Source: an uncultured Alistipes sp. (lineage in GTDB: Bacteria; Bacteroidota; Bacteroidia; Bacteroidales; Rikenellaceae). Taken from it: 38,209 nucleotides of DNA. Positions 6,597 to 16,872 of this stretch are shown piece after piece; the stretch's first letter is position 1; every line of letters begins with the position of its first letter. A program made the position numbers and the translations under genes. The notes under the pieces are model-generated. The model ran no database searches. It was not told the origin of the DNA and saw nothing but the letters and a program-made list of their open reading frames with translations. The stretch covers positions 1-38,209 of the forward strand of contig CALUNH010000021.1 in assembly GCA_944321965.1 (NCBI GenBank), given 5' to 3'.

Positions 6597-7805
6597 TCAG
6601 TCGCGGTTCAGGAAGAAGATCGGAATGTTGGCCAGGAAGACATCCTTGCCCGAAAGCTGCGACCGTTTTTCGAGCAGCTCGCTCAGCAGGATGTCGCCGA
6701 TCACGTAGTTGCTCTCCTCGCTGATGAACTGTTCGTGGATCTTCGAGAAGTGCAGGATCTGCTGGACGTCGGTCTCCCGGTAGCGGGCGTAGATCTTCAG
6801 CGTGATGTCGGTCGTGTAGTCGGGCTTCTCGATGTAGTTCATCTTCTTGTACTCGTAGCGGTAGTTGTTCAGCCGCGCCATGATGTCGCTCAGGATCGAC
6901 GAGGCCGTGGGGAGGCTTCCGGCGCCCTTGCCGAACATGAACTGGCGGTCGTAGCACTCGCCGCGGATCACCACGCCGTTGTACTCGTCGTCGACGCTGT
7001 AGATGTACTTCGAGGGGGTCACGAATTCCGGCATGACGAACATCGTGAAGTGCTCGTCGCTGACCTTGACGACCTGGGCCACGAGTTTGATCTTGACGTT
7101 CTTTTCGCGGGCATAGCGGATGTCCGAGTCGTGGATCGTCGAGATGCCGTAGGTGAAGATCCGCTCCGGGGCGACGTAGGTTCCCAGGGCGTGCACGGTG
7201 ATGATCACCAGCTTGAAGAGCGAGTCGTATCCCTCGATGTCGAACGACGGGTCGCTCTCGGCGAAGCCCAGGGCCTGGGCCTGGGCCAGCGCATTGGCGT
7301 AGGAGTCCTTGTGGTCGAAGACCCGCGAGAGGATGTAGTTCGACGATCCGTTCAGGATACCCTTCACTTCGAGCAGCAGGTCGTTGTCGTAATACTCTTC
7401 GAGGTTGCGGATCACGGGGATCGAACCGCACGACGAGGCGTCGTAGAGCAGCGCTACGCCGCGTGTCTTCTGGATCTCGATCAGCTCCGGGAGGTGGTGG
7501 GCCAGCATGGTTTTGTTGCCCGACACGACGGGGATTCCGCGCAGCATGGCGCGTTTGACGATGTCGTAGGCCGCACGGGCGTCGTCGATCACCTCGACGA
7601 CGAGGTTCACGTTCTGGTTGTCGAGGATCTCGTCCACCGAGGTGGTGAACAACGACGGGTCGACCTCGATCTTCCGAGGCTTCTTCGGGTCGCGGACGCA
7701 GATCTTCACGATCTCGGCGTGGGCGTTCTTCGATTTGCGCACCACCTCGTAGATGCCCTGTCCGACGACGCCGAATCCGAACAGTCCGATTTTGATTTTC
7801 GTCAT
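6597..7805 (-). CDS. hom: Homoserine dehydrogenase
   Basis: Reduces aspartate semialdehyde to homoserine with NAD(P)H in the cytosol, the branch-point step towards methionine and threonine. Of 402 residues, the Rossmann motif GFGVVGQG is at 10-17, GNKTML with the conserved Lys98 at 96-101, GILNGSSNYIL at 149-159, and ESDPSFDIEGYDSLFK with the probable catalytic Asp194 and Lys198. Residues after about 320 form a C-terminal extension that may be ACT-like. It is a stand-alone enzyme rather than an aspartokinase fusion. It is the last gene of metY-metX-hom, 36 bases after metX, so it should share the leader control and supply homoserine for MetX. Confidence 0.95.
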   Translation of the reverse strand: MTKIKIGLFGFGVVGQGIYEVVRKSKNAHAEIVKICVRDPKKPRKIEVDPSLFTTSVDEILDNQNVNLVVEVIDDARAAYDIVKRAMLRGIPVVSGNKTMLAHHLPELIEIQKTRGVALLYDASSCGSIPVIRNLEEYYDNDLLLEVKGILNGSSNYILSRVFDHKDSYANALAQAQALGFAESDPSFDIEGYDSLFKLVIITVHALGTYVAPERIFTYGISTIHDSDIRYAREKNVKIKLVAQVVKVSDEHFTMFVMPEFVTPSKYIYSVDDEYNGVVIRGECYDRQFMFGKGAGSLPTASSILSDIMARLNNYRYEYKKMNYIEKPDYTTDITLKIYARYRETDVQQILHFSKIHEQFISEESNYVIGDILLSELLEKRSQLSGKDVFLANIPIFFLNRD

Positions 7806-7841: not shown

Positions 7842-8861
7842 TCAGGCCTTGTCCTCCAGGAACGGAAGCAGCAGGGCGTTGAGCTGTTCGTATTCGACGA
7901 GGAATCCGTCGTGGGCGAACGGCGAGTCGATTTCGCGGTAGAGGCTGCCGGGAATCTGCCCGTGCAGGCGGCGCATCTCCGCGGGGGTGAAGATGATGTC
8001 GGTGCTGATCCCCACGACCAGCGTCCGGGCCCGGATCTGCTGCAGCGCCGCCTCCACGCCGCCGCGCCCGCGTCCCACGTCGTGGGTGTCGAAGGCGTCG
8101 AGGATCGCATGGTACGAATAGGCGTTGTAGCGGCGGCAGAGCTTCTCGCCCTGATACTGCTGGTAGGTGCAGGCGCGGTGCAGGGCGGGATTCTCCTCGC
8201 GGTCCTGCTGCGTGAGGTTGTAGCCCTCGGGACCGCGGTAGCTCAGCAGCCCCAGCGCCCGTGCCGCCGCAAGGCCCTTCATGCCGGCATCGGGGCGCTC
8301 TTCGCCGAATGTAGAGTCGGCCTCGATGGCCATGCGCTGCGTTTCGTCGATGGCGATGTTCCAGGGTGAGGCCTTGGCATCGGTGGCGATCAGCGCCAGG
8401 CGTTCGATCCGCTCCGGCTCCATGACGGCCCACTCCACGGCCTGGAATCCCCCGACCGAACTCCCCACCAGCAGGGCGATCCGCCCTACTCCCAGCGCTT
8501 CGGCCAGCAGGCGGTGCGCCTGCACGATGTCGCGGATCGTGAAGGGCGGGAACGTCCCGTACCACGGACGTCCCGTTGCGGGGTTGACGTGCAGCGGCCC
8601 CGTCGTGCCGTAGTGCGAGCCGAGGATGTTGGCGCAGACCACGAACCAGCGCTCCGGATCGAGGAACCGCCCCTTCTCGACCGTGTGGGGCCACCAGTCG
8701 GCGACCTCCGAATTGGCCGTCAGGGCGTGGCAGACCCACGCCACGTTGTCCCGTGCGGCATTCATCCGCCCGTAGGTGTGGTAGGCGATGCGCAATTCGG
8801 GCAGCGTGTGTCCCGTCTCCAGTTCGAAGGGCCCGGGGGCCGTGTAGATCTGCGGATCCAT
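7842..8861 (-). CDS. metX: Homoserine O-acetyltransferase
   Basis: Transfers acetyl from acetyl-CoA to homoserine, giving O-acetylhomoserine. The 339-residue alpha/beta-hydrolase has the MetX hallmarks: HALTANSEVADWW at 45-57, LGSHYGTTGP at 80-89, the nucleophile Ser135 in GSSVGG, Asp288 in ISTDIIFTP and His318 in HDGFLVE, the complete triad. Family members may use acetyl- or succinyl-CoA; O-acetyl is inferred from the neighbouring sulfhydrylase. The start at Met8861 gives normal family length; a much longer open frame upstream overlaps metY and is rejected. Gaps are 32 bases from metY and 36 bases to hom. Confidence 0.95.
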   Translation of the reverse strand: MDPQIYTAPGPFELETGHTLPELRIAYHTYGRMNAARDNVAWVCHALTANSEVADWWPHTVEKGRFLDPERWFVVCANILGSHYGTTGPLHVNPATGRPWYGTFPPFTIRDIVQAHRLLAEALGVGRIALLVGSSVGGFQAVEWAVMEPERIERLALIATDAKASPWNIAIDETQRMAIEADSTFGEERPDAGMKGLAAARALGLLSYRGPEGYNLTQQDREENPALHRACTYQQYQGEKLCRRYNAYSYHAILDAFDTHDVGRGRGGVEAALQQIRARTLVVGISTDIIFTPAEMRRLHGQIPGSLYREIDSPFAHDGFLVEYEQLNALLLPFLEDKA

Positions 8862-8893
8862 GATGCGGGGGTTCTGAGGCTTGTTCTGCGGGG

Positions 8894-10180
8894 TTATTCT
8901 ACGTGGGCGAAGGCCTGTTCGAAATCGTCGATCAGGTCCTCGACGTTTTCCAGTCCGAGCGAGATGCGCAGCATCGTGGGCGTCACGCCCGCCGCCGCGA
9001 GGTCCTCGTCGCTCAACTGCTTGTGGGTCGTCGAGGCCGGGTGTGTCACCACGGTGATCGAGTCGCCGATCATCGTCATGTTCGCGGCCAGGTGCAGCGA
9101 TTCCACAAAGCGCACGGTGCTCTCCAGCGTCCCTTTCAGTTCGATGGTGAAGATCGCCGAGGCCCCGAACCGGTAGTATTTCCGGGCGTTGTCGTGGCTC
9201 GGATGGGTGTCGAATCCCACGTAGCTGACCGTTTTGACCTTGGGATGGCGGCGGCAGTATTCGGCCAGCCTCCGGGCCGACTCCACCTCGTGCCTTACGC
9301 GCAGCGAGAGGGTCTCCAGCCCGATGAGCATCAGGTAGGAGTCGAACGGCGAGGGCGTGCAGCCCAGGTCGCGCAGCCCGTCGACGCGGCACTTCACCAC
9401 GAAGGCCGCATTGCCGAACGTTTCGTAGAGATTCAGCCCGTGATACCCTTCCGAGGGACCGTCGATCTGCGGGAACTTGCCGTTGGCCCAGTTGTAGTTG
9501 CCTCCGTCGACGATCACGCCGCCGAGCGTTGTGCCGTGGCCGTTGATCCACTTCGTCGCGGAGTCCACGACGATGTTCGCACCCCACTCGAAGGGGTTGC
9601 AGAGGTAGCCTGCGGCTCCGAACGTGTTGTCCACCACGAACGGGACATCCCGCCGCCGGGCCAGTTCGCCCAGCGCCTCCAGGTCGGGCACCGTGCAGGT
9701 CGGGTTACCCATGCTCTCGGCATAGATCATCCGCGTGCGGTCGTCGATCAGCGGTTCGAAATCCGCGGCCTGTTCGCTTGCAGCCATGCGGCAGTCGATG
9801 CCCAGGCGCCGCAGCGTCGTGCGCAGCAGGTTGTGGGTGCCGCCGTAGAGGTAGGGCGAGACGACGATGTTGTCGCCCGCGGCGGCCAGCGAGAGCGTCG
9901 TCACGAGGATCGCCGACATCCCTGACGAGACGGCCAGCGCTCCGACAGCTCCGTAGAGTGCGGCGATGCGCTCCTCGAAGGCTGCGGTCGTGGGGTTCTG
10001 CAGCCGCGTATAGATGTTTCCGGCCTCGCTCAGGTCGAAGAGCCGTGCGGCGTGGTCGCAGCTCCGGAAGCGATAGGCCGCCGTAGGCCAGATCGCGATG
10101 CCGCGCGAACCCGTAGGTTCGTCGGGGTTGAGTCCGGCATGGATCTGCCGCGTTTCGAATCGGTAATCTCTGGTATCCAT
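8894..10180 (-). CDS. metY: O-acetylhomoserine sulfhydrylase
   Basis: PLP enzyme making homocysteine from O-acetylhomoserine and sulfide in the cytosol. The 428 residues are the usual length. [11 protein letters not shown] near the start, [10 protein letters not shown] at 62-71, SSGMSAI (85-91), the cofactor Asp/Asn region VVDNTFGA and the Schiff-base Lys210 in [11 protein letters not shown] all match the Cys/Met-metabolism PLP family, OAH-sulfhydrylase branch. The start at 10180 ([10 protein letters not shown]) matches the family. An in-frame ATG at 10205-10207 adds nine Arg/Asn-rich residues and sits on the T-tract of the attenuator, so it is less likely. First gene of metY-metX-hom; no metB or metC is nearby, consistent with direct sulfhydrylation. 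Confidence 0.95.
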
Positions 10181-10208
10181 TTTTCGGTTTCTGTTGCGTT
10201 CGTTCATG

Positions 10209-10237
10209 AAAAAATCCGACTTCTCGGGAAGCCGGAT
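10209..10237 (-). terminator. Attenuator terminator in the met operon leader
   Basis: On the minus strand ATCCGGCTTC (10237-10228), loop CCGA, and GAAGTCGGAT (10223-10214) form a 10-bp stem with one wobble pair, running straight into a six-T tract (10214-10209). It lies 25 bases after the leader-peptide stop codon and 28 bases before the metY start, between promoter and structural genes, where an attenuator belongs. Confidence 0.9.
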
Positions 10238-10332
10238 CGTCTTGTTTCTGCACACGAAAAAACTACACCCGGCAAATTCGGCTGCACATGCACATGACCA
10301 TCATCATCGTCCCGAAGGAGACCATGCCGGTG
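10231..10332 (-). promoter_or_regulatory. Candidate antiterminator pairing of the met attenuator
   Basis: Three segments can pair in alternative ways. Segment 2 (GCCGGGT, 10273-10267, leader codons 30-32) pairs over 7 bp with segment 3 (ATCCGGC, 10237-10231), which is the 5' arm of the terminator; the two pairings exclude each other. Segment 1 (CACCGGC, 10332-10326, codons 10-12) can instead pair with GCCGG-GTG of segment 2, with one bulged G. A ribosome stalled in the Met run (codons 19-25) would leave segment 2 free to disrupt the terminator; one reaching the stop codon would cover it. Seen by inspection only; no folding energies were computed. Confidence 0.65.
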
Positions 10333-10361
10333 TTCATCCGATATGTGGTCCGTGCATCCAT
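10263..10361 (-). CDS. Met/Cys-rich leader peptide of the metY-metX-hom operon
   Basis: A 32-codon open frame on the minus strand, ATG at 10361-10359 and TAG at 10265-10263. Eight of 32 residues are Met (positions 1, 9, 13, 19, 20, 21, 23, 25) and three are Cys (24, 26, 30), clustered as TMMMVMCMC at 18-26. It begins about 25 bases after the predicted transcription start and ends 25 bases before an intrinsic terminator. This is the classical form of a leader whose ribosome stalls when the operon's end product is scarce. No Shine-Dalgarno is visible, as is normal in Bacteroidota. Initiation at Met9 would leave a 24-residue peptide that keeps the control codons. Its role is inferred. Confidence 0.82.
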   Translation of the reverse strand: MDARTTYRMNTGMVSFGTMMMVMCMCSRICRV

Positions 10362-10391
10362 GTTCCGAGATTTTCTCGTGCTCGACAGGTG

Positions 10392-10423
10392 CAAATATAG
10401 GAAAAGATTTCAAGAAATGCAAG
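10392..10423 (-). promoter_or_regulatory. Promoter of the met operon
   Basis: On the minus strand the -7 element TATATTTG (10399-10392) matches TAnnTTTG exactly; CTTG (10423-10420) matches three of four bases of the -33 TTTG at an ideal 20-base spacing. Transcription should begin near 10385, giving a 5' leader of about 205 bases before metY. Confidence 0.82.
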
Positions 10424-10442: not shown

Positions 10443-10482
10443 AAGAAAAGCTCCGCACATTACAGTGTGCGGAGCTTTTCTT
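10443..10482 (-). terminator. Terminator of the RND-tetR operon
   Basis: A perfect 17-bp stem (10443-10459 with 10466-10482) with a TTACAG loop. Its ends are A/T-rich so it supplies CTTTTCTT on either strand. It separates tetR from the met promoter. Confidence 0.88.
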
Positions 10483-10518: not shown

Positions 10519-11100
10519 TCATGCCCGGCGGTCGATCATCTCGATGCCCTGGCGGGTTGCCGCACCGCGCAGGATCGTGCGGCAGAAGAGACTCACCTCC
10601 TCCTGCGAAGCGCCGTTCAGCCGCAGGTCGAGCAGTGCTCCCATCAACTGGTCGGCGAATGCCGTGGCGTCGATCTCCGGCAGGAGCAGCTCCTGCTTGC
10701 GGCAGGTGTCGAGATGCAGGGCCAGCTCCTTGTGCCAGAATTCGCGCTGTTCGTCGTAATGCTCCGCGAAGACCACCTTGCGGCGCAGGTCCGACAGGAA
10801 ACTGTGATCCACCCGATAGAGATTCTCGATGTACTCGTTCATCAGACGGACGGTCTTTTGCAGGGGATTTCCGCTCCGGCGTTTGCGGCAGGCGACGATC
10901 CGCTCCTGCTGCTGAGTCCGCATGGCGTCGAGACACGTCATGATCAGGTCGTTCTTGTCGGCGAACATTTCGTAGAGGGTGCGTTTGGAGATCCCCAGCG
11001 TCTGCGCGATCTCATCCACCCTTACGGCACGGATGCCGTATCGGGCGATGAACTCCTGCGTCGTGCGGATGATCTCCTCTCTGGTCGCTCCCCGTTTCAT
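10519..11100 (-). CDS. TetR-family transcriptional regulator
   Basis: A 193-residue DNA-binding protein. The N-terminal TetR helix-turn-helix spans about 9-55, with IRAVRVDEIAQTLGISKRTLYEMF typical of the recognition region (DEIAQTLGISKRTLYE is the core). The rest is the helical ligand-binding and dimerisation domain. It is the last gene of the RND operon: its ATG overlaps the stop of the outer-membrane factor gene (ATGA, 11097-11100), so the two are translationally coupled. The regulator would then be made together with the pump, which suggests feedback control; the inducer is unknown. An operator was not identified. Confidence 0.9.
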   Translation of the reverse strand: MKRGATREEIIRTTQEFIARYGIRAVRVDEIAQTLGISKRTLYEMFADKNDLIMTCLDAMRTQQQERIVACRKRRSGNPLQKTVRLMNEYIENLYRVDHSFLSDLRRKVVFAEHYDEQREFWHKELALHLDTCRKQELLLPEIDATAFADQLMGALLDLRLNGASQEEVSLFCRTILRGAATRQGIEMIDRRA

Positions 11101-12473
11101 TTCTGCTCCTCCCCGGTTGTCAGGTCACGACCTCCGCCGAGTGCCTGGTAGAGGTTGACGGCACCCTGAATCTCGTCGAAGCGGTCGGCGATCTGCGACA
11201 ACTGGGCCGAGAGCAGCGACTGCTGGGCGGTCAGGACTTCGAGGTAGGTCGTCGTACCGTGCTGCATGAGCAGTTCCGTGGACTCCACGGCACGCTCCAG
11301 CGCCTCGATCTGACGCATCCGCAGGTCGGCTTTCGCACGTGCCGACTGGCTCTGCGTCAGGGCGTTGTTGACCTCGGCCCCGGCATTGAGCAGCGCCTGC
11401 TGGAACGCAAGGCGCGACTCCTCCTGCTGGGCCTTGGCGATCTTCACCTGTGCACGGTTGGCGTTGGCGTTGAAGATCGGCTGCAGGAGCGATGCGGCGG
11501 CATTCCAGATCATTTTGCCCGGATTGACGATGATTCCGTTGTTGTTGGTCCAGCCGAGCGTACCGCTCAGCGTGATCGACGGATAGAGGGCCGAGCGGGC
11601 ACTGGCCGTGGCATAGTAGGACTGCATGAGCGAGTATTCGGCCTGCCGGATGTCGGGACGGTTCGCGAGCATCTGCAGGGGCACGCCGACGGCCAGCGTC
11701 TCGGGCATGTGCTGATCGGCAAGCTCCCCGCGGGCAATCGTGTGGGGAGCCTCGCCCAGCAGCGAGCAGAGGCTGTTTTCGGTCTGCGTGCGCTGGTAGG
11801 CCAGGTCGTGCAGCGACGCCTCGATCGAGAGCGTGTTGGCTTCGTACTGGGCGACAGCGGCCTCATTGGCCAGTCCGGCCTGTTTCATGGCCTGCATCAT
11901 CTCGACGCTCTGACGCCATTTGGCTGCCGTCTCTTCGGTCACGTCGTACTGGCTGTCGAGCATCAGCAGCGTGTAGTAGAGGTTTGCCACGCTGGCGATG
12001 AGTTGCGTCTTGACGGCCTGTTCGTACTCCCGGCTCTGCAGGTAGAGCGCCTTGGCCCTGCGTTTGGCATTCGTCAGTCCGTTGAAGATGTCGATCTGCC
12101 AGCTGGCCTGGACCGGAATCGAGTAGGTTTTCGTCGGGGTTGCGCCGTCGAAACTGCTCAGCGAGCCCTGGGGTGCGAAGTTGAACGACGGCAGGTAGGC
12201 CAGGCGGGCCGATTTGAGCGTCGCCTCGGCCTCCTGGATGCGCCAGCCGGCCGATTGCAGGTCGGTATTGCTCTCCAGGGCCTGTCCGATGAGCGCCTGC
12301 AGCTGCGGATCGGCGAACATCTCCTGCCAGCTCAGATCGCCCAGGGTCGTCGAATCGGCCGTTTCGGCCGTGCCGTAGAGTCCGTCGGTCATCACCTCCG
12401 GACGGGTATAGGGTTTGTAGATGCCGCAGCCCGTCATGGCGGCTGCCGCAAGTATGATGATGGTTTTTCTCAT
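11097..12473 (-). CDS. Outer-membrane efflux lipoprotein (TolC/OprM, NodT family)
   Basis: The 458-residue protein has a lipoprotein signal with Cys16 (AMTGC) and the NodT-family start GIYKPYTRPEV. Two repeated alpha-hairpin and beta-strand halves follow, with family signatures WRIQEAEATLKSARLAYLP near 82-100 and ANRPDIRQAEYSLMQSYYATASARSALYPSI in the second half. The trimer forms the outer-membrane channel of the RND system. It follows the pump gene by 4 bases and overlaps tetR by 4. Confidence 0.93.
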   Translation of the reverse strand: MRKTIIILAAAAMTGCGIYKPYTRPEVMTDGLYGTAETADSTTLGDLSWQEMFADPQLQALIGQALESNTDLQSAGWRIQEAEATLKSARLAYLPSFNFAPQGSLSSFDGATPTKTYSIPVQASWQIDIFNGLTNAKRRAKALYLQSREYEQAVKTQLIASVANLYYTLLMLDSQYDVTEETAAKWRQSVEMMQAMKQAGLANEAAVAQYEANTLSIEASLHDLAYQRTQTENSLCSLLGEAPHTIARGELADQHMPETLAVGVPLQMLANRPDIRQAEYSLMQSYYATASARSALYPSITLSGTLGWTNNNGIIVNPGKMIWNAAASLLQPIFNANANRAQVKIAKAQQEESRLAFQQALLNAGAEVNNALTQSQSARAKADLRMRQIEALERAVESTELLMQHGTTTYLEVLTAQQSLLSAQLSQIADRFDEIQGAVNLYQALGGGRDLTTGEEQK

Positions 12474-12477
12474 GGTG

Positions 12478-15400
12478 TTACTCCTCCTCTTTCTCGTTTT
12501 TAACCTCTTCCAGTTCGGCGCGCACGGCCCATTGCGGATCGGGATCGAACTCCAGGGGCTTGAGCTTCTCCTGAAGCGTCTCGAAGACGATGAACAGCGT
12601 CGGCACGAGGAACAGCAGCGCCAGCGTTCCGACGATCATGCCGCCCACGACGCCCGAACCGAGGGTCGAGTTACCGTTGGCACCCACACCGTGCGAGAGA
12701 ACCAGCGGGATCATACCGAAGACGCAGGTCAGCACCGTCATCAGAATCGGGCGCAGACGGGCCTTGGCGGCCGAAACGGCAGCTTGCGTGAGGCTCATGC
12801 CCGCACGGCGGCGGTCGGCGGCGTATTCGGTGATCAGGATGGCGGTCTTCGACAGCAGACCGATCAGCATGATGATACCCGTCTGGAGGTAGATGTTGTT
12901 TTCGAGCCCCATGATCTTGGCCAGCAGGAACGAACCCATCAGTCCGCACGGTACGGCCAGAATCACGGCGAACGGCAGCAGGAAACTCTCGTAGAGGGCG
13001 CTCAGGATCAGGTAGATCAGCAGGATGCAGATCCCGAAGATGATGATCGTGTTGCTGCCCGTCTGGGCCTCCTCACGGGTGATGCCGTCGAACTCGTAGC
13101 CGTAGCCGTGCGGGAGCACGGTGGCGGCAACCTCCTGGATGGCCTTGATGGCGTCACCCGACGAATAGCCGTCGGCAGCCGTACCGTTCACGGCGATCGA
13201 GTTGTAGAGGTTGAAACGGTTGAGCACCTCGGAGCTGTAGACGCGCGTCAGCTTCACGAACTGGCTCAGCGGGGCCATTTCGCCGCTCTCCGTGCGGACG
13301 AAGACGTTGTTCAGCGATTCGGTGTCGAGCCGGTATTTCGGGTCGGCCTGGATCGTCACGTAGTACATCTTCGAGAAACGGTTGATGTTCGAGACGTACT
13401 GACCTCCGTAGTAACCCGAGAGGGTCGAGAGAATCGTGTTGGGCGAGACTCCGGCACGTTTGGCCTTGGCGGCGTCGATGTCGACCATGTACTGCGGGAA
13501 GTTGATGTTGAAGGTCGAGTAGGCGCGGGCGATCTCCGGACGCTGGTTCAGCGCCGCGATGAACTGCAGGTAGACGTTGTAGAAGTCGGTCAGCTCGCCG
13601 CCCGCCTTGTCCTGCAGGTGCATCGAGAAACCGGTCGACGTTCCGTAACCCGAGATCATCGGCGGTGCCACGGCGAAGAGCTGGGCATCCTTGATGTCGG
13701 CCGTACGTCCGTAGATCTGGTTGATCACGGCGTTCACGTTGTCCGTTTTTTCCGGACGCTCGTCCCAATCCTTCAGCTTGAGGATACACATACCGTACGA
13801 CGAACCCTGTCCGGCAATCATGCCGTAACCGGCCACCTGCATGAAGTCGCGGATCTGCGGAATACCCTGAATACGTCCGGCAACCTCCTTCATGACCTTG
13901 TCGGTCTCGGCAAGCGACGATCCCGGGGCCGTGGTGACGTTGACCATGATCGTTCCCTGGTCCTCGTCGGGCACCAGACCCGTCTTGGTGGAGTTCATCA
14001 GCAGGACCAGTGCCGCGAAGGCCAGTCCCAGCGTCGACCACATCAGCCACTTGTGCTTGATGAAGAGCATCACGCCGTGCTTGTATTTGGCGATCATGGC
14101 GTTGAAGGCCGTGTTGAAGGCCTTGCGGAAACGGGCGGCGAAGTTGTCCTTCATCTCGCCGTTTTCATCCATGTAGGGCTTCAGAATCAGGGCGCAGAGG
14201 GCTGGAGAAAGCGTCAGGGCGTTGACGGCCGACAGACCCACGGCCACGGCCATCGTGATACCGAACTGCGTGTAGAAGACGCCCGACGTACCGCCCATCA
14301 TCGCCACGGGGATGAACACCGCCATGAAGACGAGCGTCGAGGTAACGATGGCCGACGTGATGCCCGACATGGCGTCGATCGTAGCCATGTAGGAGGACCT
14401 GTACCCGGCGTCGAAGCGGGCCTGGACCGCCTCGACGACGATGATGGCGTCGTCGACGACCGTACCGATGGCCAGTACCAGGGCGAAGAGCGTCAGCAGG
14501 TTGATCGAGAATCCGGCCACGGCCAGGAAGGCGAACGTACCGACCAGTGCCACGATGATCGAGACCGTGGGAATCAGCGTCGAGCGGATGTCCTGCAGGA
14601 AGACGTAAACCACGAGAATCACAAGCAGAATGGCCTCGAAGAGGGTCTTGACCACCTCCTTCATCGAGGCGTAGAGGAAGTCGTTGACGCTCTGCAGGTG
14701 GGCGATGGCGACGCCTTTCGGAAGTTCCTGTTCGATTTCGTCGAGCAGGGCGTTGATATCGTTGACGACCTGCGTGGCGTTCGAGCCCGCCGTCTGGAAG
14801 ATCATCGAGCTCACGCCCGGGTGTCCGTTCGTATAACCCTTGTAGGCGTAGGATTCGCTGCCGAGTTCGATATCGGCGATATCCTTCAGCCGCAGGACGT
14901 TGCCGTCGGCATCCGAACGGATGACCACCTGGCCGAACTCCTCGGGGGTCTGGATACGTCCGCGGTACTTCATCGTGTACTGGAACGTATTTTCGGAGTT
15001 TTCACCCAGCGAACCCGTTGCCGACTCGATGTTCTGCTCGGCCAGCGCTGCGGTGACGTCCGACGGGATGAGTTTGTACTGCGCCATCACGTCGGGTTTG
15101 AGCCATACGCGCATCGAGTAGTCGGCGCCCAGCGTGAAGGCCTCGCCGACACCCTGGATACGCAGGATCCGCGGTTCGATGTTGATTTTCGAGTAGTTGG
15201 CCAGGAACGTCTCGTCGTAGCTGTCGTCGGGGCTGTAGAGCGAGAAGATCTTGACCATCGAGGTCTGGCGCTTCATGGTCGTCACACCGATCTGCGTGAC
15301 TTCCGAAGGCAGCTGTCCGGTAGCGGTCGAGACCTTGTTCTGTACGTTCACCGCCGCCATGTCGGGGTTGGTGCCCTGGCGGAAGTAGATCGAGATCGAG

Positions 15401-15663
15401 GCGCTTCCGGCTGCGGCGCTGGAGGTGATGTAGGTCATGTCCTCCACGCCGTTGATGGCCTCCTCAAGAGGTACGACGACCGAGTTCTGAATCGTCTCGG
15501 CGCTTGCTCCCGGGTACGAGGCGCGCACCATGACCGTCGGGGGCGCGATGTCGGGATATTGCTCGATAGGCAGGCTTGCCAGACCGATCAGGCCCGCAAT
15601 CACGATGACGATGGAGATGACCGACGCCAGTACGGGTCGTTCAATAAAATGCTTGAGTGTCAT
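12478..15663 (-). CDS. RND efflux pump, HAE1 type (AcrB/MexB-like)
   Basis: A 1061-residue inner-membrane proton/drug antiporter, the usual length. It has twelve transmembrane segments and two large periplasmic loops; the start MTLKHFIERPVLA is typical. Proton-relay residues Asp404 and Asp405 are in GTVVDDAIIVVEAV, and the Lys of the second half in LLSKTAILITEYA. The protein ends in an acidic tail (EEVKNEKEEE). It works with the adaptor encoded 3 bases upstream and the channel 4 bases downstream. Substrates cannot be read from sequence; HAE1 pumps export drugs, bile salts and similar amphiphiles. Confidence 0.95.
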   Translation of the reverse strand: MTLKHFIERPVLASVISIVIVIAGLIGLASLPIEQYPDIAPPTVMVRASYPGASAETIQNSVVVPLEEAINGVEDMTYITSSAAAGSASISIYFRQGTNPDMAAVNVQNKVSTATGQLPSEVTQIGVTTMKRQTSMVKIFSLYSPDDSYDETFLANYSKINIEPRILRIQGVGEAFTLGADYSMRVWLKPDVMAQYKLIPSDVTAALAEQNIESATGSLGENSENTFQYTMKYRGRIQTPEEFGQVVIRSDADGNVLRLKDIADIELGSESYAYKGYTNGHPGVSSMIFQTAGSNATQVVNDINALLDEIEQELPKGVAIAHLQSVNDFLYASMKEVVKTLFEAILLVILVVYVFLQDIRSTLIPTVSIIVALVGTFAFLAVAGFSINLLTLFALVLAIGTVVDDAIIVVEAVQARFDAGYRSSYMATIDAMSGITSAIVTSTLVFMAVFIPVAMMGGTSGVFYTQFGITMAVAVGLSAVNALTLSPALCALILKPYMDENGEMKDNFAARFRKAFNTAFNAMIAKYKHGVMLFIKHKWLMWSTLGLAFAALVLLMNSTKTGLVPDEDQGTIMVNVTTAPGSSLAETDKVMKEVAGRIQGIPQIRDFMQVAGYGMIAGQGSSYGMCILKLKDWDERPEKTDNVNAVINQIYGRTADIKDAQLFAVAPPMISGYGTSTGFSMHLQDKAGGELTDFYNVYLQFIAALNQRPEIARAYSTFNINFPQYMVDIDAAKAKRAGVSPNTILSTLSGYYGGQYVSNINRFSKMYYVTIQADPKYRLDTESLNNVFVRTESGEMAPLSQFVKLTRVYSSEVLNRFNLYNSIAVNGTAADGYSSGDAIKAIQEVAATVLPHGYGYEFDGITREEAQTGSNTIIIFGICILLIYLILSALYESFLLPFAVILAVPCGLMGSFLLAKIMGLENNIYLQTGIIMLIGLLSKTAILITEYAADRRRAGMSLTQAAVSAAKARLRPILMTVLTCVFGMIPLVLSHGVGANGNSTLGSGVVGGMIVGTLALLFLVPTLFIVFETLQEKLKPLEFDPDPQWAVRAELEEVKNEKEEE

Positions 15664-15666
15664 GGG

Positions 15667-16872
15667 TTATTCCTCCTTTTCGGTTTGGGTTTCGGCGGCA
15701 GCGTTCTCCTCGTCTGCGGCGGGAGCTGCGGCGGTCTCTTCGGCAGGAGCTGCGGTTTCGGACGCTGCAGCCTCGCCCTTGGCGCGGATCGGCGTGCCTT
15801 CACGCATCAGACCGACACCCTCGGCGACGATCACATCGCCCGGAACGAGACCCGAGGTGACGATATACTCCTTGCCGTCGGAGATCTTCTCGACGCCGAT
15901 CATGGCCGAGGCGGCCTTGCCGTCTGCCAACTTATATACATATACCTTGTCCTGGAGTTCGAACGTGGCGGCCTGCGGTACGACGATGCAGTCCTTGAAG
16001 GTGCTGGTCAGGATGACGTTGCCCGAACCGCCGCTGTGCAACAGCCCGTCGGGGTTGGGGAACGCCGCACGCAGCGAGACGCTGCCCGTCGAGGTGTCGA
16101 TCACACCGCTGATCGACTCCACGCGGCCCGAAAGGTCGTACATCGAGCCGTCGTTGAGCTGCAACTGTACGTCGGGCATGTTCTTGAGCGTCTCGGCGAT
16201 CGAGCCGTAGCGGCGCGTGAGCGAGAGCAGTTGGTTCTCGGTCATCGAGAAGTAGACGTACATCGTCGAGTTGTCCGACACGGTGGTCAGCGGTTGCGGC
16301 ATCGAGGCGCTCACCAGGGCGCCGACGCGGTACGGCAGCGTGCCGACGACACCGTTCGACGGAGCCTTCACAACCGTATAGGAGAGGTTGTTGGCGGCAT
16401 TGACGCGCTGGGCCTCGGCCTGAGCCAACTGGGCTTTGGCCGTCAGCAGGTTGTTCTCGGCCGTCGAGAGGTCGAACTGCGAGACGACTTTGCGGGCGAA
16501 AAGTTCTTTTTTGCTGTCATAGGTAAGTTGGGCCGTAGCGACGCTGGCTTCTGCAGCGGCGACATTGGCCTCGGCGGTTTGCAGGGCGGCCTTGTAGGGT
16601 ACCTGGTCGATGATGAACAGGGTCTGGCCCTTGGAGACGTTCTGGCCCTCGTTTACGCAGAGCTGCCAGATGGTTCCCGAGACTTGCGGGTAGATGTCGA
16701 TGTCCTGACGTCCGCGGATCGTTGCCGAGTAGTTCGTCGGGATTTCGCGGTCGGTCGTGGCAATGGTCATCACGGCGTATTCGCCAGGGCCCATTGCGGT
16801 CGGGGCCTGTCCACACGCAACGGCAGCCAGGCTGTATGCCCAAACGGCCGCTTTCACAAATGTTTGCTTCAT
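15667..16872 (-). CDS. RND periplasmic adaptor lipoprotein (AcrA/MexA-like)
   Basis: A 401-residue membrane-fusion protein with a lipoprotein signal ending LAAVA-Cys20. The order is beta-barrel start, lipoyl half (PQVSGTIWQLCVNEGQNVSKGQTLFIID), alpha-hairpin (about 90-165, AEANVAAAEASVATAQLTYDSKK region), second lipoyl half (VKAPSNGVVGTLPYRVGALV), beta-barrel and membrane-proximal domains. A low-complexity Ala/Glu tail of about 35 residues ends the protein; it is unusual in length. First gene of the operon, transcribed divergently from the AraC regulator. Confidence 0.93.
   Translation of the reverse strand: MKQTFVKAAVWAYSLAAVACGQAPTAMGPGEYAVMTIATTDREIPTNYSATIRGRQDIDIYPQVSGTIWQLCVNEGQNVSKGQTLFIIDQVPYKAALQTAEANVAAAEASVATAQLTYDSKKELFARKVVSQFDLSTAENNLLTAKAQLAQAEAQRVNAANNLSYTVVKAPSNGVVGTLPYRVGALVSASMPQPLTTVSDNSTMYVYFSMTENQLLSLTRRYGSIAETLKNMPDVQLQLNDGSMYDLSGRVESISGVIDTSTGSVSLRAAFPNPDGLLHSGGSGNVILTSTFKDCIVVPQAATFELQDKVYVYKLADGKAASAMIGVEKISDGKEYIVTSGLVPGDVIVAEGVGLMREGTPIRAKGEAAASETAAPAEETAAAPAADEENAAAETQTEKEE

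Follow-up and report, generated by a model that had tools for sequence, protein, structure and literature searches.

Methionine genes are usually controlled by riboswitches, T-boxes or repressors. In the window (the whole stretch of DNA analysed here, 38,209 nucleotides from an uncultured Alistipes sp.), a short frame rich in methionine codons stands ahead of metY-metX-hom on the minus strand. The locus raises the question of what such a frame senses, by which mechanism it could control the genes behind it, and how widely the arrangement recurs among relatives.

The leader frame and its setting

The genes downstream of the frame were assigned with curated protein families. The metY product (O-acetylhomoserine sulfhydrylase; 8894..10180, minus strand) scored 558 bits against TIGR01326 (cut-off 495) and matched PF01053, and that of hom (homoserine dehydrogenase; 6597..7805, minus strand) scored 307 bits against NF004976 (cut-off 205) and matched PF00742. 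metX (homoserine O-acetyltransferase; 7842..8870, minus strand, start approximate) had TIGR01392 and NF001209 as best matches, both under their curated cut-offs (324 bits of 500; 299 of 331), and was over the cut-off for PF00561. The order metY-metX-hom given by the first-pass annotation thus held for metY and hom, whereas metX is named after its best-matching family although it stays under the cut-off.

Upstream of metY, a 32-codon ORF (MDARTTYRMNTGMVSFGTMMMVMCMCSRICRV*; 10263..10361, minus strand) contains eight Met and three Cys codons. Its regulatory codon cluster, ATG ATG ATG GTC ATG TGC ATG TGC, occupies codons 19-26 (10284..10307, minus strand), and a Met tail is also found in relatives. 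The frame is preceded by a short 5' UTR of about 30 nt (10362..10391, minus strand) and a promoter string, TTG-N20-TATATTTG (10392..10422, minus strand), which is of the Bacteroidota consensus type. The same or nearly the same string stands 60-82 nt 5' of the leader start in L003, L004 and L006-L010. A sigma-70 promoter scan found none, as expected for a member of the Bacteroidota. The promoter and the Met/Cys-rich frame described by the first-pass annotation were therefore confirmed, the promoter being of the Bacteroidota type. The leader peptide had no match in Pfam, and its Met run, ATGATGATGNNNATG, is present five times in the window's own genome, one copy being the leader. Between the metY promoter and a TetR-like regulator gene (10519-11100; PF00440) lies a perfect 16-bp palindrome with a 6-nt loop (10444-10481), which looks like the terminator of that upstream gene; after the TetR-like regulator, ORFs resembling by eye an outer-membrane factor, an RND pump and a membrane fusion protein complete the interval 10519-16872.

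Between leader and metY, a terminator scan and folding identified an intrinsic terminator with an 11-bp stem, a loop of 4 and a U-run (10209..10238, minus strand; -15.1 kcal/mol). A terminator ahead of the methionine genes had been called before, and it is real, though its stem (10213-10238) lies beyond the interval then annotated (10263..10423). At the gathering score, Rfam returned only a tRNA for the window, with no T-box and no other cis-regulator, and no cis-regulator, T-boxes included, in 17 leader loci. Twenty-one permissive matches (DsrA, uup, Thr_leader and others) were all below the gathering score and were judged to be chance. The SAM-I riboswitch (RF00162) had no match upstream of metY in the window, nor any in the window's genome, which is 85% complete.

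For Met clustering, we counted the internal Met codons among the 15 final codons of every ORF with an ATG start within 300 nt 5' of metY and took the highest count as the score. The window's score of 5 was reached in one of 20,000 dinucleotide shuffles of its 300-nt upstream region. A conserved Met-rich frame, which the first-pass annotation proposed to look for upstream of metY in relatives, was then sought over 300 nt in 97 regions, mostly from Alistipes and other Rikenellaceae. These comprised the window, the first relative loci (80 kept of 179 relatives, of which four had less than 300 nt upstream and were dropped) and, from the 29 family loci L172-L200, the 20 that remained once nine duplicates or near-duplicates were dropped; some near relatives, such as L003, stayed in the set. 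At least three internal Met codons were found in 57/97 regions, compared with 0.8% of shuffles and 1/97 antisense regions, and leaders similar to the window's, with a terminator, recur in relatives. The other 40 regions had fewer than three, 26 of them none. Across the order, 10/89 metY upstream regions had at least three (0.4% of shuffles; 2/89 antisense). Where the Met leader is lacking, metY lies close behind another frame in L031, L033, L036, L041 and L045 (by eye) and has a promoter-like string 68-100 nt upstream in L047, L061, L063, L065 and L075.

Competing helices at the leader end

The last codons of the window's leader contain GCCGGGU (region 2; 10267..10273, minus strand), which folding and covariation identify as the 5' strand of a candidate antiterminator. 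Its partner, AUCCGGC (region 3; 10231..10237, minus strand), is common to antiterminator and terminator. Among 24 loci with a leader of this kind (type I; L083 was outside the scan), 22 had a U-tract terminator (shuffles, 5%), and a separate scan found one in the remaining two, L040 and L046. The first of these scans found none in 39 leaderless metY upstream regions, so the arrangement that had been named as counter-evidence, a terminator kept and a Met-rich frame lost, was not seen.

Side by side, the 3' codons of type I leaders match the terminator's 5' arm as its complement, and the two vary together: GGAGCCGG with CCGGCTCC in L054, GGTCCGG with CCGGACC in L057, GGGAACCGG with CCGGTTCCC in L070 and GAAGCCGG with CCGGCTTC in L083. 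When 25 type I loci were reduced to 11 sequence-class representatives, with four hairpins entered by hand, 60 of 100,000 partner permutations were as favourable as the true pairing of tail and arm, and several foreign arms paired better than a leader's own. L046 is an exception to the rule: its leader has an early stop codon, with the GCCGG element 3' of it.

Covariation was measured on 21 of these 25 loci, leaving out two near-duplicates (L005, L015) and two that did not fit the pattern (L044, L046). In the antiterminator, six of ten pairs had changed on both sides (0/500 shuffles) and covariation was 0.147, against 0.079 in shuffled and 0.03-0.08 in slid alignments. Its four core pairs are invariant, the pairs in columns 8-10 hold in just 5, 7 and 8 of the 21 sequences, and further pair types were not above shuffles (9 vs 8.2; 191/500). 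The terminator was paired in 97.6% of cells, with a covariation of 0.245 against 0.147 shuffled and 0-0.09 slid; just two of its pairs had changed on both sides, a count that 29/500 shuffles reached. Gaps among seven aligned type I leaders were multiples of three, which carries little weight, since whole ORFs, start to stop, were aligned.

We folded the RNA that a ribosome would leave free, up to the terminator loop. With Met20, 21, 23 or 25 in the A-site, the antiterminator was preferred (-14.6 to -14.9 kcal/mol); with the ribosome at the stop, the terminator was (-15.1 kcal/mol). With Met19 in the A-site, the fold preferred another structure to the antiterminator. Once the full terminator stem was included, the terminator won even with the ribosome at Met21. 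Because the energies are close and the full stem prevails in this way, the order of synthesis must decide, as it does in known attenuators. In the ribosome-free fold, computed for the window, CACGAGAAAA in the 5' UTR can pair with UUUUUUCGUG just 3' of the leader stop when the leader is untranslated, and a 1:2 pause/anti-antiterminator hairpin that ties up region 2 is predicted.

Computationally, the locus thus has the anatomy of an attenuator: a short ORF with cognate codons between a promoter string and methionine biosynthetic genes, a terminator, a competing antiterminator that covaries within the limits given above, and recurrence in relatives. From sequence and modelled folds, we consider it highly probable that the window's leader controls transcription by ribosome-mediated attenuation and takes the supply of charged elongator tRNA-Met as its signal; that the ORF is translated, that ribosomes stall on it and are coupled to the polymerase, and in which direction the response goes, is what we infer. 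RNA polymerase would start at the promoter (10422-10392) and a ribosome would begin the 32-codon leader. With plentiful Met-tRNA, the ribosome would reach the stop and cover region 2, which lies directly 5' of it, so that region 3 would pair with region 4, the terminator would form and transcription would end before metY. If Met-tRNA were short, the ribosome would wait on the Met cluster, about 16-34 nt 5' of region 2, which would then be free to capture region 3 before region 4 is made, allowing read-through into metY-metX-hom. With no translation, upstream pairing would tie up region 2 and termination would be the default. Attenuation of the trp/his type by methionine, as first proposed for this locus, is therefore supported for the window's architecture by an antiterminator that lies at the leader end and covaries. 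The picture is limited to that architecture, because the leaders described below keep the Met tail mostly without a terminator.

Met-tailed leaders of other kinds

Forty-six loci (44 distinct), mostly from rumen Alistipes and other Rikenellaceae, have a leader that ends in MRMCR* or a near variant (type II). They lie among L018-L082 (rumen Alistipes) and among L176-L212. An almost invariant ATGCGAATGTGCCGNTAGGCAC corresponds to GUGCC-GNUA-GGCAC, a hairpin whose loop holds the stop codon, and about 13 nt 3' of it comes a second one, in which the loop is typically UACGY. Part of this invariance is by construction, because the loci were collected with the pattern CGAATGTGCC..TAGG; ORF-based lists chosen by Met count show the same end. 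The first helix is invariant except for one wobble, which puts it beyond a covariation test, whereas the second has changes on both sides at all six pairs, with 81% of cells paired. Jointly, covariation in the two helices was 0.324, against 0.149 shuffled and 0.09-0.15 slid, although the bare count of six pairs changed on both sides was reached by 186/500 shuffles. A U-tract terminator was found in one of 38 type II leaders, and the downstream stretch has more C (0.25) than G (0.18), which is compatible with Rho but proves nothing.

At E <= 0.01, a covariance model of type II (R1) had matches in 19 of 120 family genomes. In 17 of these the match was strong (E < 1e-5) and in every case lay ahead of metY, whereas we saw no metY close to any of five weak matches from the family and order searches; one of the five (L234) is near a contig end. 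Outside the Rikenellaceae, 295 genomes of the order yielded a single weak match to R1, and 59 leader loci of other kinds gave eight weak ones (best E 0.17), mainly to the string AUGCGAAUG.

Upstream of metY in other Bacteroidales families, 9/40 regions carried a SAM-I aptamer. Across the order, 81 such aptamers were found in 71 of 237 genomes, and 54 of the 81 are followed, within 26 nt and mostly after 9-15 nt, by the start of an ORF of 12-60 codons. Six further aptamers (L252, L263, L267, L278, L289, L290) run, by eye, into metH-like genes at 12-20 nt, and 21 have neither. Met fills 94 of the 540 last-ten positions of the 54 ORFs, compared with 14 of 1081 positions elsewhere (odds ratio 16, P = 4e-33); Arg (13% vs 4%) and Cys (5.9% vs 2.8%, P = 0.002) are also enriched there. 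A stricter rule, requiring a start within 60 nt of the aptamer and two or more Met among the 12 final positions, selected 38/81 aptamers in 36/71 genomes (shuffled mean 1.2, maximum 4 in 50 rounds), and 33 of these 38 leaders start 9-15 nt behind the aptamer. The 38 lie among L244-L324 (e.g. L264, L266, L279, L295, L316). The same rule selected none of 31 aptamers picked outside Bacteroidales from a longer list across the phylum; partial cases there are L355 (TRMR), L366 (RMCMELCCSS, start 132 nt downstream) and L373 (seven Cys).

Where examined, the Met-tailed leaders behind SAM-I precede methionine-pathway genes. For 24 of the 54 ORFs, metY falls in the 1-1.5 kb of downstream sequence retrieved; in ten others the longest downstream frame resembles aspartate kinase in four cases, metH in three, HcyBio in two and metX in one, and Pfam, run on one of each, returned AA_kinase with ACT, S-methyl_trans and HcyBio, and only an alpha/beta hydrolase for metX. 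U-tract terminators were found in 3 of 22 SAM-I-linked leaders, and their downstream stretch again has more C (0.20) than G (0.14). Codon differences in four pairs of these leaders were mostly non-synonymous (synonymous/non-synonymous 2/6, 5/19, 2/5 and 2/7) and the Met tail was kept, as expected of a sensor rather than a protein. The tail M-P-x-M-P-M-C-M occurs in separate genomes (L264, L316, L321, L304, L324), with synonymous differences at Pro and Leu among the first three, which hints at some constraint on the peptide itself.

Since leaders and metH alike start about a dozen bases behind the aptamer, SAM binding may block initiation of either. We lean towards a reading in which the window's leader would be the riboswitch-less branch of a two-input Bacteroidales device: SAM-I would gate translation of the leader, the ribosome on the Met tail would read Met-tRNA, and the genes would be on only if SAM and charged Met-tRNA were both low. 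The Rikenellaceae metY leaders examined (the window and 17 leader loci) have no aptamer; type I leaders among them have an intrinsic terminator and type II leaders a nearly invariant stop-codon hairpin. The aptamer may have been lost from them. Within the window's family, an aptamer and leader occur together in one genome (G213, L295), before HcyBio.

The first-pass annotation also suggested that the Cys codons may sense sulfur supply. Cys is absent from 3 of the 18 typed type I leaders, whereas it is modestly enriched in the SAM-I-linked tails, so that cysteine sensing by the leader is a guess with weak support from sequence. Some leaders end in Cys runs (L286 SSCCCFCCC, L373 NPCCCCCCC, L131 MRMCCCC, L144 RMCCCKH, L142 MCMCCCGNHS), and these ends may possibly sense cysteine; L286 and L373 lie behind SAM-I aptamers, with starts at 10 and 19 nt.

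Alternative readings and known systems

The plus strand carries a His-rich ORF (10194-10400) that reads HAHDHHHRPEGDHAGVHP, and the Met frame might be its shadow or a chance ORF; with Met clustering seen once in 20,000 shuffles, a frame that recurs in relatives and no Pfam match for either ORF, this is scarcely credible. Metal-binding runs resemble MMMVMCMC, which would suit a genuine small protein made from the same transcript as metY, such as a peptide that binds metal through Met and Cys. That reading is very improbable, as the peptide lacks a Pfam match, leader bodies are poorly conserved among relatives, a terminator separates the leader from metY, and Met tails also occur behind SAM-I aptamers ahead of methionine genes.

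Two other explanations keep the leader as a regulator. In nascent-peptide arrest like that of TnaC, a tunnel peptide with an R-x-x-R or MRMCR end would sense methionine or SAM and stall at the stop, so that Met would matter as amino acids and not as slow codons. Conservation of the tail does extend beyond Met, with R-x-x-R in most type I and MRMCR* in type II leaders, and MPLMPMCMR is kept in L264, L316 and L321 across synonymous differences. Yet in type I much of this conservation is accounted for by RNA pairing, given that tail codons and terminator arm covary; the synonymous positions (CGA, TGC) of type II are invariant too, which also points to RNA; and among SAM-I-linked leaders the tails vary widely and the codon differences in the four pairs are mostly non-synonymous. 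We regard arrest as improbable for the window's leader. Small, too, is the probability that the same leader acts through Rho or at translation rather than through the intrinsic terminator, as the scarcity of U-tract terminators in type II (1/38) and SAM-I-linked leaders (3/22) might suggest, together with the excess of C over G behind both (0.25/0.18 and 0.20/0.14; leaderless controls, 0.205/0.244). In type I this bias is small (0.212/0.198), and the window's strong terminator is rightly placed, with a helix that covaries among relatives. Ribosome-mediated attenuation at the intrinsic terminator is thus the reading we prefer for the window.

E. coli trpL and hisL are ribosome-mediated transcription attenuators. 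Like these, the window has a leader ORF with cognate codons, overlapping antiterminator and terminator, and a stop near the antiterminator 5' strand; unlike them, its signal would be methionine and region 2 lies inside the last leader codons. Bacteroid-trp RNA has a suspected leader peptide in the Bacteroidota, with tryptophan as the signal. Small ORFs, also suspected leader peptides, have been reported in long 5' UTRs of B. thetaiotaomicron, their signal unspecified and no methionine leader being named in the part of that paper available to us (PMC7366714). According to the sections available, a uORF before fthC possibly answers to methionine in an indirect way, via initiator tRNA (PMC11109978). 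In the literature searched, much of it available in part, we came across neither a leader peptide for methionine in Bacteroidota nor a SAM riboswitch combined with a methionine leader, nor a terminator-less form like type II; a broad attenuator survey (Lopatovskaya et al. 2010, as cited in the available part of PMC10272879) could contain earlier predictions.

In Actinobacteria, as far as the available text of PMC1262725 goes, trp and ilvB have ribosome-mediated attenuators, whereas methionine operons have no conserved upstream RNA structure and methionine is elsewhere under S-box control. The same text describes Mycobacterium cys operons whose cysteine-codon leaders lack terminators, with Rho proposed (PMC1262725). 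These are nearest in anatomy to the type II and SAM-I-linked leaders, having sulfur amino-acid codons near the stop and no terminator, but they read cysteine, belong to another phylum and come with no riboswitch in that text, and the window's type has a terminator. Nearest in logic to the composite of SAM-I and leader is the Xanthomonas campestris met operon, whose SAM-I riboswitch also senses uncharged initiator tRNA (PMC7270179, in the part available), joining SAM and Met-tRNA sensing in one 5' UTR. There the RNA binds the tRNA directly and controls the Shine-Dalgarno sequence, whereas the window has no SAM-I match; the terms 'leader peptide' and 'uORF' are absent from the text of PMC7270179. 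The SAM-II riboswitch of S. meliloti metA is described in the accessible sections as AUG1/terminator/AUG2, with AUG1 and AUG2 in frame (PMC9373788). It resembles the composite in having a SAM aptamer, a start codon close behind and a terminator further down, but it is SAM-II, and those sections describe no methionine-codon tail (PMC9373788).

The leaders examined escape Rfam models, and ORFs so short are easily overlooked. If the composite works as proposed, one 5' UTR would sense the cofactor through RNA and the amino acid it is made from through a ribosome, as a two-signal gate, which would suggest how relatives dispense with the riboswitch yet keep control. As far as we have found, the device is of a known kind, the methionine signal being new for the phylum and the SAM-I partner new elsewhere in the order.
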